From assembly GCF_000735355.1 (NCBI RefSeq), contig NZ_JMPI01000073.1, forward strand, positions 1 through 64,000: 64,000 bases of DNA, read 5' to 3'. Within the stretch, counting starts at the first letter, position 1. Every line of letters begins with the position of its first letter. Below the pieces are notes generated by a model that made no database searches, was not told the DNA's origin, and saw nothing but the letters and a program-made list of their open reading frames with translations. Below, piece by piece: positions 6,367-40,131 of this stretch. The stretch is from Buttiauxella agrestis ATCC 33320 (lineage in GTDB: Bacteria; Pseudomonadota; Gammaproteobacteria; Enterobacterales; Enterobacteriaceae). The position numbers and the translations under genes were made by a program.

Positions 6367-6669
6367 ATGGCTTATAAATACGCTTTGATATTGCTTATCC
6401 CGCTCGCCATTATGGGTTGCTCATCGACTGATACGTCAGGCTATGACGGGCATAAAACCCTTAGCCCGACCGAGACCAACGAGGCATTAATCATGCGCTC
6501 GCAATATCCGGATCACTATTATGGCCGTGAGAATTTAACAACGGAGCAGCGCAGAGAGATAAGCGAACAAATGCGCGCTGACAGACTCGAAGCCCGCGGG
6601 CGACGTGATAACAGCACCGACAGCGGCGATGGCTTCGGGCAGTCGGTTCCACAAGGGTTTTATAACTAA
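6367..6669 (+). CDS. Small predicted lipoprotein of unknown function
   Basis: 100 residues. The lipobox LAIMGC places the lipidated cysteine at 18, followed by Ser-Ser, which favours outer-membrane sorting. The mature part is hydrophilic and charged, with a predicted helix NLTTEQRREISEQMRADRLE and a Gly/Ser-rich tail. An AGGAAGAG sequence lies just upstream of the ATG. No family recognised. It is divergent from the 5550 gene and upstream of the IstR locus. Confidence 0.65.
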   Translation: MAYKYALILLIPLAIMGCSSTDTSGYDGHKTLSPTETNEALIMRSQYPDHYYGRENLTTEQRREISEQMRADRLEARGRRDNSTDSGDGFGQSVPQGFYN

Positions 6670-6689
6670 GTAAATTTCATATCTTATAA

Positions 6690-6773
6690 AAACAAAAAAC
6701 CCCGCTGGTGAGGCGAGGTCTTTTGTTTTTACTGCTAGTGCTTTTACTGCTTCGCACATCTAGTAACTTCAAC
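6690..6773 (-). ncRNA. istR: IstR-1-like antisense RNA against the tisB mRNA
   Basis: On the minus strand a strong promoter reads TTGCAC (6808-6803), a 17-base spacer, then TATATT (6785-6780). About seven bases on, transcription would begin near 6773 and end at a hairpin (arms 6699-6705 and 6713-6719) followed by TTTTTTGTTTTT, giving an RNA of about 80 bases; E. coli IstR-1 is 75. Its first 20 bases are complementary, with one mismatch and one G-U pair, to 7009-7028 in the tisB leader. In E. coli IstR-1 blocks the ribosome standby site of tisB mRNA in just this way. The LexA box and tisB next door support it. The transcription start is inferred. Confidence 0.8.
6699..6719 (-). terminator. Rho-independent terminator of the IstR-like RNA
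   Basis: On the minus strand ACCTCGC pairs with GCGGGGT (one G-T pair) around a seven-base loop, followed directly by TTTTTTGTTTTT. Read on the plus strand the stem has a C-A mismatch, so the minus orientation is the better one. Confidence 0.8.
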
Positions 6774-6779
6774 CTCCAA

Positions 6780-6808
6780 AATATACGACGAAACCTTCGG
6801 CGGTGCAA
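6780..6808 (-). promoter_or_regulatory. Sigma-70 promoter of the IstR-like RNA
   Basis: TTGCAC and TATATT spaced by 17 bases on the minus strand, upstream of the predicted RNA start at about 6773. Confidence 0.7.
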
Positions 6809-6876
6809 ATACTTGCTGCTATTGTGAGCAATCAATAAAAATGTCACTTGCGAAGCTGTTCGCATTTTCACCCTTT

Positions 6877-6896
6877 TACTGTTTATTTATACAGTA
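6877..6896 (+). promoter_or_regulatory. LexA operator (SOS box) for tisB
   Basis: TACTG, ten A/T bases, then CAGTA: a near-ideal SOS box with the core CTGT-N8-ACAG. It lies about 205 bases upstream of the tisB start, the same arrangement as in E. coli, where LexA represses tisAB until DNA damage. Confidence 0.92.
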
Positions 6897-6898
6897 AA

Positions 6899-7018
6899 AT
6901 GGATATACTGAGTGTGTTGAATGTGATGTGCTCTGAGGCCGCAAACCGCCGCGCAATTCAAGTCCTGGCTGAAACGGGTGGTGCCGTCAGTGCCTTAACC
7001 TCAGAGGAGCGCATCTAG
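6899..7018 (+). CDS. tisA-like leader ORF in the tisB transcript (possibly untranslated)
   Basis: 39 codons from the ATG at 6899, starting MDILSVLNVM and ending at a TAG at 7016-7018 inside the IstR target. It begins three bases after the LexA box, so it is at or near the 5' end of the mRNA. In E. coli the equivalent ORF, tisA, is not needed for toxicity and appears not to be translated. There is no Shine-Dalgarno sequence. Listed because it occupies the leader, not because translation is likely. Confidence 0.25.
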   Translation: MDILSVLNVMCSEAANRRAIQVLAETGGAVSALTSEERI

Positions 7019-7028
7019 TAACCTCAAC
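7009..7028 (+). promoter_or_regulatory. IstR target (ribosome standby region) in the tisB leader
   Basis: GCGCATCTAGTAACCTCAAC repeats 18 of 20 bases of the sequence at 6754-6773 in the IstR gene, in direct orientation. Because IstR is transcribed from the other strand, this makes the two RNAs complementary. It lies about 70 bases upstream of the tisB ATG. Confidence 0.75.
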
Positions 7029-7100
7029 AAATTCAGCAGGCTACAGGCAGCGGAAAGGCTCGTCGGCTGAAAGTGCTCCTGACTACAGGAGAAAAAGCGT

Positions 7101-7190
7101 ATGGGCTTGATGGGACTGGCTATTTTGTTTCTGAAACTCATGGTTGCGTTACTGCAACTGCTTGAAGTCGCCATGAAATACTTTAAGTAA
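7101..7190 (+). CDS. tisB: SOS-induced small membrane toxin TisB
   Basis: 29 residues: starts MGLMGLAILFLKLMVALLQ and ends EVAMKYFK. It has the same length, the same single amphipathic membrane helix and the same -LKYLK-like end as E. coli TisB. TisB inserts in the inner membrane, lowers the proton motive force and promotes persistence after DNA damage. A strong AGGAGA lies ten bases upstream of the ATG. A perfect terminator follows. It sits upstream of emrD, its E. coli position. It is too short for most gene callers. Confidence 0.92.
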   Translation: MGLMGLAILFLKLMVALLQLLEVAMKYFK

Positions 7191-7212
7191 TTCCTGGCCT
7201 TCAAGTCGCACC

Positions 7213-7241
7213 AAAGGGAGGCGGGAAACCGCCTCCCTTTT
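7213..7241. terminator. Strong bidirectional terminator after tisB
   Basis: AAAGGGAGGCGG and CCGCCTCCCTTT form a perfect 12-base stem around a GAAA tetraloop, with A and T runs on both sides. It ends tisB and, read the other way, the DUF6404-like gene whose stop codon it touches. Confidence 0.95.
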
Positions 7242-7587
7242 ATAAATCTTTCCAGGCGGGCAATCTGTAATACCAACGACTTAAGGCGTAATACACGGTC
7301 ATTATTAAACCGAACGTGATTCCTGCCGACACTATTTTCAACAATATACTTCCAGCAGTATCTCCATCATTTCGCCATTGAAGAAACCACATAATCCCCC
7401 CCCACAGCACGCCGAAGTAGAGGCTGAAGTTCAGGAAAGTCATGTAAAAAGGAACAAAATGTGGAGGCCGACACCTGAAATTAAAACGCCAGAGCAAATT
7501 GACATAGGGTGGGGCATAAGTGCTTTTCCACATCCCTGTTTTGGCAAGTAATTTGAGCGCACGTTGTTTCTTCGTTTCAAAATCCAT
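7240..7587 (-). CDS. DUF6404-like membrane protein
   Basis: 115 residues from the ATG at 7587 (MDFETKKQRALKLLAKTGMW). An AGGGGA lies nine bases upstream; a TTG twelve codons earlier has no better site. The N-terminal part is a charged helix, followed by a WRFNFRCRPPHFVPFY segment and two hydrophobic stretches near residues 50-70 and 80-103. I recognise it as the DUF6404 family, whose function is unknown. It is convergent with tisB and shares its terminator. Confidence 0.65.
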   Translation of the reverse strand: MDFETKKQRALKLLAKTGMWKSTYAPPYVNLLWRFNFRCRPPHFVPFYMTFLNFSLYFGVLWGGIMWFLQWRNDGDTAGSILLKIVSAGITFGLIMTVYYALSRWYYRLPAWKDL

Positions 7588-7810
7588 TCCAACATATCCC
7601 CTGATAATAGTTTTTAACTTCAAGGATATATCTCGTCATCGGATGACACTGAGGCTCATCCCTCATTTCTGGCAACAAAAATTGCCGTTGAGGCTTTACA
7701 GGCTGCCATTTTATCTCTGGTTCAAAAGGTGTCAGGCCATAGGGCTTCATGGTCTTTGTGTGGTAGATTCCTCTCGATTTTTTGGCGCAGTCAGTTTTAT
7801 AAACTGACAA
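7577..7810 (-). CDS. Possible small hypothetical protein upstream of the DUF6404-like gene
   Basis: 77 residues, overlapping the next gene's start by 11 bases in another frame. It contains YGLTPFEPEIKWQPVKPQ and no membrane or secretion signal. No family recognised. An internal ATG (MKPYGLTPFEPEI) at 7750 is an alternative start. It is kept at low confidence because nothing else explains the gap and the two ORFs would form a translationally coupled pair. Confidence 0.35.
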   Translation of the reverse strand: MSVYKTDCAKKSRGIYHTKTMKPYGLTPFEPEIKWQPVKPQRQFLLPEMRDEPQCHPMTRYILEVKNYYQGICWNGF

Positions 7811-7843: not shown

Positions 7844-9028
7844 ATGAAAAAGTTAGCCAATATTCACCTTCTGATGATGTTGATTCTGTTGGTTGCTGTC
7901 GGACAAATGACGCAAACCATTTATATCCCCTCAATTCCCGATATGGCTCGCGATTTTGGCGTGCGCAGCGGCGCAATCCAGCAGGTGATGGCGGCTTATT
8001 TGCTGACCTATGGCTTATCACAACTTGTCTATGGGCCAATTTCAGACCGTATTGGCCGACGCCCGGTCATTCTTACCGGCATGAGCATTTTCATCCTCGC
8101 CACCCTGTGGGCGCTGTTTACAACAAATTTAACCGCGTTAGTGATTGCCAGTGCGCTGCAGGGAATGGGGACGGGCGTTGCGGGCGTGATGGCGCGGACC
8201 ATGCCACGTGACCTTTACGAAGGTGCATCGCTTCGCTCTGCTAACAGTTTGTTGAATATGGGGATTCTGGTTAGCCCACTCATGGCTCCGGTGATTGGCG
8301 GAATGCTTGACTCCGTGTGGGGGTGGCGCGCTTGCTACGGTTTCCTGCTGGTGCTGTGCATGATTGTGGCGTTCTGCATGCTGCGCTGGCTGCCGGAAAC
8401 GCGCCCAGTTCAGGAAAAACCGCAACGGCTGATGGCGAGCTATAAAACGCTGCTCGGCAGCGGTTCATTTAATTGTTATTTGCTGATGCTGGTCGGTGGT
8501 CTTGCCGGTGTTGCGGTATTTGAAGCCTGCTCTGGCGTGTTGATGGGCGGTGTTTTGGGGCTTAACGGCTTGGTGGTGAGTATTCTGTTCATTCTGCCGA
8601 TTCCTGCTGCCTTTTTTGGCTCCTGGTATGCCGGGCGGCAAAACGCGCGTTTTTCATCGCTGATGTGGCAGGCGGTTTTAAGCTGCCTGTTTGCTGGCAT
8701 CCTGATGTGGATCCCAGGCTGGCTGGGCGTGATGAATATCTGGACGCTGTTGGTGCCAGCCGCGCTGTTTTTCTTCGGCGCAGGTATGTTATTCCCGCTG
8801 GCGACCAGCGGTGCAATGGAGCCGTTCCCGTTCCTGGCAGGCACCGCAGGGGCGCTTGTGGGCGGGCTGCAAAATATTGGATCAGGCGCAATGGCGTGGT
8901 TTTCAGCGTTGCTGCCACAAACCGGGCAATTCAGCCTCGGCATGTTAATGACCGCGATGGGCGTGATGATTCTGTTCTGCTGGTTGCCGCTGGCGCATCG
9001 TTTTCAGCAGCATGGGGAAACGGTGTAA
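7844..9028 (+). CDS. emrD: Multidrug efflux MFS transporter EmrD
   Basis: 394 residues, as in E. coli. A 12-helix major-facilitator drug:proton antiporter of the inner membrane that exports hydrophobic uncouplers. The family motif GPISDRIGRRPVIL is present near residues 65-78, and GTGVAGVMARTMPRDLYE near residue 107-124 is typical of EmrD. The start lies downstream of tisB as in E. coli. A perfect hairpin (9013-9037) encloses the stop codon but has no T-run. Confidence 0.96.
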   Translation: MKKLANIHLLMMLILLVAVGQMTQTIYIPSIPDMARDFGVRSGAIQQVMAAYLLTYGLSQLVYGPISDRIGRRPVILTGMSIFILATLWALFTTNLTALVIASALQGMGTGVAGVMARTMPRDLYEGASLRSANSLLNMGILVSPLMAPVIGGMLDSVWGWRACYGFLLVLCMIVAFCMLRWLPETRPVQEKPQRLMASYKTLLGSGSFNCYLLMLVGGLAGVAVFEACSGVLMGGVLGLNGLVVSILFILPIPAAFFGSWYAGRQNARFSSLMWQAVLSCLFAGILMWIPGWLGVMNIWTLLVPAALFFFGAGMLFPLATSGAMEPFPFLAGTAGALVGGLQNIGSGAMAWFSALLPQTGQFSLGMLMTAMGVMILFCWLPLAHRFQQHGETV

Positions 9029-38742: not shown

Positions 38743-40131
38743 TCACGAAGATAATGTTCTGATTAAGTTGGAGAAATCTTCTTTGATGTCGTGGCTTTCT
38801 TCACGCAACTGCTCAATCTTACGGCAGGCGTGCAGAACCGTAGTATGGTCGCGGCCACCAAAGGCATCGCCGATTTCTGGCAAGCTATGGTTAGTCAGTT
38901 CCTTCGCCAGCGCCATCGCCATTTGACGTGGACGGGCAACCGAGCGAGAACGACGCTTGGACAACAGGTCAGCAATCTTTATTTTATAGTACTCGGCCAC
39001 CGTCTTTTGGATATTGTCGATGGTAACGAGTTTTTCTTGCAGCGCCAGCAAGTCACGCAGCGCTTCACGCACGAAGTCGATGGTTATCGCCCGGCCAGTA
39101 AAGTTGGCATTGGCGATAACACGGTTCAGTGCTCCTTCAAGCTCACGCACGTTAGAACGTAAACGCTTGGCAATAAAGAAAGCCACTTCACCCGGCAGAC
39201 GAATGTCATTCTCGTCAGCTTTTTTCATCAGGATCGCAACGCGAGTTTCCAGTTCCGGCGGTTCAATCGCTACCGTCAGTCCCCAACCGAAACGAGATTT
39301 CAGACGATCTTCAACACCGTTGATCTCTTTTGGATAACGATCCGAAGTCAGAATGATCTGTTGATTACCTTCAAGCAGGGCGTTGAAGGTGTGGAAGAAT
39401 TCTTCTTGTGAGCGCTCTTTATTAGCAAAGAATTGAATGTCATCAATCAGCAGCGCATCAACAGAACGGTAGTAACGTTTGAACTCTTCAATAGCGTTGT
39501 TTTGCAGTGCTTTTACCATGTCCTGAACGAAACGCTCAGAGTGCATGTACACCACTTTTGCATTCGGTTTGCGAGCAATAATACCGTTGCCAACAGCATG
39601 CAAAAGGTGCGTTTTACCTAAACCCGTGCCGCCATAAAGGAATAGAGGGTTATATGCGCCGCCTGGGTTATCAGCCACCTGACGTGCCGCCGCGCGAGCC
39701 AATTGGTTCGACTTACCTTCAACGAAGTTATCAAAGGTATGTTTCACGTTGACGTTAGAACGATAAGAGTGTTCAGCCGGAGCAGGGAGGTTATCCCAGC
39801 TTGGGCGAATTTGATTCGTTGGACGTGCAATGTGCACATGCGCCGGAGCAGTAGTAACAGTCTGCTGATTCAGCGTTTGACTGACCGGTTTGCTACCAAC
39901 TTCAAAACGCAGGACAGGGGCATCATTACCGCAAAAATCATTGAGCAAGCCATTGATGTTATTGAGGTACTTGTCTCTCACCCAATCGAGTACAAAACGG
40001 TTTGGCGCATACAGGGCCAGCGTGTTATCGCTCAGTTCCGCCTGTAGGGGGCGTATCCACATACTGAATTCTGTGGCTGGTAACTCATCCTGCAATCGGG
40101 CAAGACACTGCTGCCAAAGCGAAAGTGACAC
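38743..40131 (-). CDS. dnaA: Chromosomal replication initiator DnaA
   Basis: 462 residues, five fewer than E. coli, all lost from the variable linker (about residues 87-130). Domain I 1-86; AAA+ with Walker [10 protein letters not shown] near residue 167 and Walker B LLIDDIQ; the box-binding C-terminal helix-turn-helix has the signature [14 protein letters not shown]. The GTG at 40131 follows GGAG by six bases and gives [16 protein letters not shown] as in E. coli; the GTG four codons upstream overlaps the ribosome site itself. Confidence 0.98.

Follow-up and report, generated by a model that had tools for sequence, protein, structure and literature searches.

Can a small antitoxin RNA and its target alter the sequence by which they recognise each other without releasing the toxin? 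Among SOS type I systems, none has been studied as thoroughly as the tisB/istR-1 pair, and the question is raised by a related locus near the start of the window (the whole stretch of 64,000 nucleotides of Buttiauxella DNA analysed here). Comparison of its sequence with those of related loci indicates that it is very probably a chromosomal, SOS-controlled TisB/IstR-1-type type I system, belonging to a lineage in which the centre of the antitoxin-target duplex appears to be drifting while the two partners change in step.

Elements of the locus

The features on which this reading is based are the following (coordinates are those of the window).

6694-6724, minus strand: Rho-independent terminator ending the antitoxin, with its stem at 6714-6699 (a 12-bp hairpin when folded)
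6694-6773, minus strand: IstR-1-like antitoxin RNA of about 80 nt, start inferred; its recognition segment is 5' GUUGAAGUUACUAGAUGUGC
6754-6773, plus strand: antitoxin copy of the 20-nt recognition repeat, GCACATCTAGTAACTTCAAC, identical to 7009-7028 at 18 of 20 positions
6780-6808, minus strand: predicted antitoxin promoter from sequence, -35 TTGCAC (6808-6803), 17-nt spacer, -10 TATATT (6785-6780); similar consensus match
6877-6896, plus strand: LexA (SOS) box TACTGTTTATTTATACAGTA, identical to the E. coli tisB box (locus L139)
6904-6909, plus strand: predicted tisB promoter -10, TATACT, from sequence
6962-7001, plus strand: 5' leader module GTCCTGGCTGAAACGGGTGGTGCCGTCAGTGCCTTAACC, counterpart by conservation of the E. 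coli standby/pseudoknot element (role from PMC7708055)
7009-7028, plus strand: antitoxin target and putative ribosome standby site GCGCATCTAGTAACCTCAAC, at +95 (repeat, fold)
7076-7091, plus strand: predicted hairpin CUCCUG/CAGGAG sequestering the tisB Shine-Dalgarno sequence (fold)
7101-7190, plus strand: tisB, 29 aa, MGLMGLAILFLKLMVALLQLLEVAMKYFK (PF13939, 29.1 bits, cut-off 25)
7216-7241, plus strand: tisB terminator GGGAGGCGG-GAAA-CCGCCTCCC-TTTT, conserved in relatives
7240-7623, minus strand: DUF6404 gene lying between tisB and emrD; only some Buttiauxella have it
7844-9028, plus strand: emrD, conserved neighbour (NF008654, 641 bits, cut-off 479), also beside E. coli tisB

The original prediction, made from the letters of the window, had proposed a 29-residue TisB-like peptide with a ribosome site. 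The open reading frame is preceded by AGGAG at 7087-7091, and it scores above the gathering threshold of the Pfam family TisB_toxin, which bears the proposal out. It misses the equivalog cut-off of NCBIfam TIGR04459 (35.4 against 38, in a full-length match over residues 1-29) and that of NF011340 (31.5 against 53); judged by NCBIfam scores, the predicted window TisB is a diverged one. E. coli TisB requires K12, Q19 and at least one of K26 and K29, and D5 is dispensable (PMC11449926); K12, Q19, K26 and K29 are all kept in the window, and position 5 is G5. The gene is present in a single copy in the window's genome, and its proposed terminator is indeed in place.

The LexA box, described earlier as perfect, agrees letter for letter with that of E. 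coli tisB. The active tisB mRNA of E. coli begins at +42; it carries a 5' pseudoknot and a sequestered ribosome-binding site, and IstR-1 pairs with its single-stranded standby region, from +93 to +116 (PMC7708055). When E. coli numbering is transferred to the window through CCUGGCUG, which matches C50, C51, G54, C55 and G57 (PMC7708055), the tisB transcript would start at about 6915, which places the target at +95, the distance common to the lineage and E. coli L139. The aligned canonical genera and Dryocola share a near-identical leader module GTCCTGGCTGAAACGGGTGGTGCCGTCAG, which is two bases shorter in a paralogue. Folding predicts an unpaired probability of 0.00-0.02 for the Shine-Dalgarno sequence in all loci folded, together with only moderate accessibility of the target in the processed mRNA form (0.58 unpaired, in a fold that omits pseudoknots).

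The start of the divergent antitoxin was placed from promoter spacing and from the GUUGA conserved at the 5' end in relatives, and the resulting RNA folds at -22.0 kcal/mol. A segment containing its -10 element, AATATACGACG, is invariant in 14 of 14 aligned Buttiauxella and Dryocola loci, and the terminator is near-invariant among the loci aligned. The Rfam istR model (RF01400) gives 41.5-149 bits on seven canonical loci (E. coli, 149.1) and rejects the window antitoxin (12.4 bits, E-value 8.1, gathering score 45); scans of two Buttiauxella loci and a single Dryocola-genus locus returned no match to it. With istR and TIGR04459 both scoring below threshold, the proposal that ordinary gene calling would miss the locus is plausible. 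The antitoxin is named IstR-1-like by its position, 5' end, predicted promoter and pairing, and not by the Rfam model. Two other Rfam identities were rejected: OrzO-P (RF02083) reaches 37.4 bits, below its gathering score of 60 and mostly through the terminator hairpin, and a weak match to the Thr leader is due to the terminator. The window's only Rfam match at gathering level is AsdA (RF02674, 78.8 bits), an antisense RNA of dnaA mRNA, at 39556-39636 on the plus strand.

The arrangement had been attributed to the E. coli IstR-1/tisB type, and this attribution is upheld by the shared 29-aa TisB, identical LexA box, emrD neighbour, conserved 5' leader module, sequestered Shine-Dalgarno sequence and target at +95, as well as by a divergent antitoxin of about 75-80 nt with a GUUGA start and its own promoter and terminator. 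Unlike E. coli IstR, the window antitoxin has no middle hairpin (GCGG-ACCA-CCGC), the element with the ACCA loop being replaced in the window lineage, and the terminator loop differs. The promoter of IstR-2, a second RNA of the E. coli system that is controlled by LexA (-35 TGGACA, -10 GATACT/CATACT), a motif recognisable in most canonical loci on the minus strand just beyond the LexA box and missing from the paralogues, was absent from the window and from the other Buttiauxella and Dryocola loci scanned. The stretch of leader from target to Shine-Dalgarno sequence is also about 30 nt shorter than its E. coli counterpart. The zor/orz system of E. coli O157 likewise combines a 29-aa membrane toxin with a divergent antitoxin RNA, and the resemblance of the terminators accounts for most of the OrzO-P score given above; the toxin sequence and LexA box of the window, however, point to TisB.

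Pairing between antitoxin and target

A small RNA carrying an 18/20 repeat of the mRNA leader at its 5' end had been proposed, and the two copies, 255 bp apart, turn out to form the sole direct repeat of at least 14 nt within 6650-7260. Dinucleotide shuffling, repeated 2000 times, gave a mean best 20-mer match of 13.5 and a value of 18 only once; such a repeat is rare for the window alone and beyond chance when 14 distinct homologous pairs are counted. The calculated duplex comprises 18 Watson-Crick pairs and one G-U pair out of 20 (-27.3 kcal/mol), with one internal A-C mismatch. Co-folding of the whole window RNAs yields a gain of -20.3 kcal/mol for the cognate antitoxin against -7.6 kcal/mol for that of E. 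coli, values that are illustrative only, as pseudoknots are omitted from the model. Both departures from identity had been ascribed to drift of the mRNA target, an assignment that stands for one of them. Position 3 varies only among targets (A or G), so the G of the window arose on the target side, where it still allows G-U pairing. The C that the window target has at position 15 also occurs in B. brennerae, B. gaviniae, B. agrestis and genome G374, and no species but that of the window has its antitoxin base there, so here the antitoxin side has changed; five of the 14 pairs are unpaired at this position, the loosest in the helix.

The recognition core hardly varies across roughly two dozen genera, and most canonical genera conform to the 20-mer GCACACTGTGTTA-Y-G-(T/C)CAAC with little deviation. 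Buttiauxella, Dryocola and Pantoea invariably retain the ends GC.C and TCAAC but differ in the 11-nt centre, 5 to 8 of the 11 central positions departing from the canonical core. The 14 distinct antitoxin/target pairs (Buttiauxella, Dryocola and three Pantoea) contain 11 antitoxin alleles, and the pairing has been preserved to an extent that makes the suggestion of natural co-variation, offered earlier from the window alone, both right and stronger than a single locus could reveal. In controls that leave shared ancestry in, 97.5% of the 280 duplex cells are paired (85.4% when shuffled; 0 of 500 shuffles), nine of the 20 base pairs have changed on both sides (5.5 shuffled; 0 of 500 shuffles), both-side cells number 39 (11.6 shuffled; 0 of 500), and sliding the partners by one to three columns leaves at most 42% of cells paired. 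Permutation of the partners gives a mean of 85 and a maximum of 114 core Watson-Crick matches in 20,000 trials, against 130 of 154 observed. Since some alleles are common to several species, independent events are fewer than rows; one antitoxin allele is common to B. brennerae, B. gaviniae and B. agrestis, which are not one clade in the emrD tree, a sharing that could stem from recombination or tree error.

The direction of the differences is also informative. Transitions between cognate copies preserve G-U pairing in 19 of 20 cases, and in nine of the 10 distinct site-changes to which the test is limited, counting C/T and A/G changes that leave G-U in a minus-strand reading of the antitoxin; this direction also supports the minus-strand assignment of the antitoxin. 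Each cognate duplex of the lineage contains 0-3 G-U pairs and 0-1 mismatches, in keeping with the weaker constraint that had been suspected.

Rates of change distinguish the lineage from its relatives. Among the Buttiauxella and Dryocola loci, the mean difference is 0.38 at emrD third codon positions, 0.37 in the antitoxin core and 0.49 in the target core, whereas in eight canonical emrD/tisB loci the corresponding values are 0.44, 0.11 and 0.04; the lineage core therefore changes about as fast as third positions, and the target about tenfold faster than elsewhere. Calculated energies are -27 to -34 kcal/mol for cognate duplexes and -10 to -16 kcal/mol for an E. coli-type antitoxin on lineage targets, and an antitoxin paired with the target of another allele mostly gives a far weaker duplex than the cognate combination. 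Two exceptions, the G396 antitoxin on the B. izardii target (-29.3 kcal/mol) and the G394 antitoxin on Dryocola-genus targets (about -25 to -28 kcal/mol), mean that the pairs are only partly separate.

Distribution, losses and rival explanations

A published account restricts TisB to Enterobacteriaceae (PMC11449926). In the family sample, PF13939 is found in 78 of 392 genomes and 25 of 154 genera, and the tisB locus is present in 11 of 12 Buttiauxella and three of six Dryocola-genus genomes. When named genomes were scanned with a TisB alignment, eight Buttiauxella loci came first, followed by Dryocola boscaweniae, Enterobacter sp. R1(2018), which is grouped in the same genus as Dryocola, and three Pantoea; a plasmid search with TisB returned only canonical copies of less than 60% identity, several of them in chromosome-sized records. 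Among the Buttiauxella compared, the DUF6404 gene occurs at the locus only in the window, B. brennerae, B. agrestis and G317. On the other side, a lipoprotein-like 100-aa ORF (6367-6669, plus strand) adjoins the antitoxin terminator and is conserved in Buttiauxella and Dryocola; no family match at cut-off was found for it.

Several genomes carry partial or altered versions. In the Buttiauxella genome G317 (locus L142), tisB and nearly all of the antitoxin gene are deleted and the antitoxin terminator remains beside DUF6404 and emrD, and in G065 of the Dryocola genus (L141, approximately 1450-1660) the antitoxin promoter and terminator are kept and tisB is deleted, leaving an orphan antitoxin comparable to the orz that E. 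coli carries as an orphan. G388 has a decayed second tisB with an in-frame stop at codon 19 (L188, C8:40585-40671), about 9 kb from the intact copy and directly preceded by an antitoxin-type terminator. In Pantoea ananatis (G146, L138/L148), the stretch between the repeats is deleted and one repeat is left about 90 nt upstream of tisB; as the deletion took the LexA box and both promoters, this tisB is without its regulation. Pantoea allii (L136/L165) has an intact tisB/antitoxin pair with no recognisable LexA box, which may lie outside SOS control. Three genomes, G338 (L108), G306 (L109) and G747 (L189), possess a second TisB-like locus (e.g., MSGMEWGILFLQLAVAILQLLDAYLKFGN) as well as a canonical tisB. 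In these second peptides Q replaces the essential K12, and the loci have their own, different recognition core, with LexA-like boxes at L108 and L109 and a CTGT..ACAG site at L189. Cross-pairing, computed for two of these genomes, yields -6 to -10 kcal/mol where cognates yield -29 to -34 kcal/mol, which in these calculations shows that cores predicted to be distinct enough for separate function coexist in one cell.

The likeness of the two repeats could in principle reflect concerted evolution, with gene conversion or slippage at the DNA level, and not selection on RNA pairing, keeping them alike. The copies are direct repeats at a short distance, recombination at them is seen in P. ananatis, and the copies of P. 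stewartii are identical. Cognate copies, however, usually differ at one to three core positions, DNA conversion does not predict the G-U-preserving bias, and the flanks beyond the 20-nt repeats are not homogenised, so that this explanation appears improbable. Relaxed selection on a locus heading for loss, with the present match as a residue, would agree with the absence of the IstR-2 promoter and with the loss in G317, the lone antitoxin of G065 and the pseudogene copy of G388, but it is very unlikely given that the ORF, LexA box and terminators are intact in 11 of 12 Buttiauxella and that pairing is kept while the sequence diverges at third-codon-position speed. That the antitoxin core follows targets other than tisB is scarcely plausible: its co-variation is with the tisB leader, at nine of 20 positions, and a seed with multiple targets would be expected to stay conserved.

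Proposed working and significance

The reading preferred here is that of an SOS-controlled TisB/IstR-1-type system whose antitoxin and target co-evolve. As the 5' module, the sequestered Shine-Dalgarno sequence and the TisB residues are kept, we infer for the window the working known from E. coli, namely SOS induction, mRNA processing, standby blocking, membrane toxicity and persistence. LexA would keep tisB off until DNA damage, upon which a leader-bearing tisB mRNA would be made with its Shine-Dalgarno sequence locked in the hairpin. Ribosomes would have to load at the upstream standby region (about +95), near the conserved 5' structure, and a constitutive antitoxin RNA, pairing with this region through its first 20 nt, would block their loading, so TisB would be made only when tisB mRNA outruns the antitoxin. 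The toxin would then depolarise the membrane and favour dormancy. Constraint on the 11-nt duplex centre would have been lifted in Buttiauxella, Dryocola and a few Pantoea, and this centre would have drifted, antitoxin and target changing in step through G-U intermediates towards largely species-specific pairs. The duplex has fairly probably become a freely drifting lock-and-key, in which many antitoxins would fail to silence a sister species' toxin. The constraint may have been released by loss of the IstR-2 promoter and of the IstR body, and we hypothesise such a link between the missing promoter and middle hairpin and the freed core.

A TisB/IstR-type SOS system is in itself already known. 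In the literature searched, which covers few subscription journals, no earlier report was found of TisB in Buttiauxella or Pantoea, nor any relevant report of co-evolution between antitoxin and target in type I systems, which hints weakly that the co-variation in this lineage is new. The type I system timP/timR, which undergoes no mRNA processing, also displays base-pair co-variation in its mRNA among enterobacteria (PMC11228461); there it concerns a pseudoknot within the mRNA (PMC11228461), whereas in the window lineage it links antitoxin and target.

In practical terms, the locus shows why Rfam and NCBI models overlook such systems. The recognition sequence is near-constant in E. coli and most of its relatives, and the lineage thus offers a natural series of changed, matched pairs, including partly paired intermediates, beside a frozen control group of canonical genera. 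It becomes possible to ask what froze the core in other genera and whether the constraint comes from IstR-2 or from the IstR hairpin, and to examine how a small RNA, together with the one target known for it, shifts specificity without releasing the toxin.
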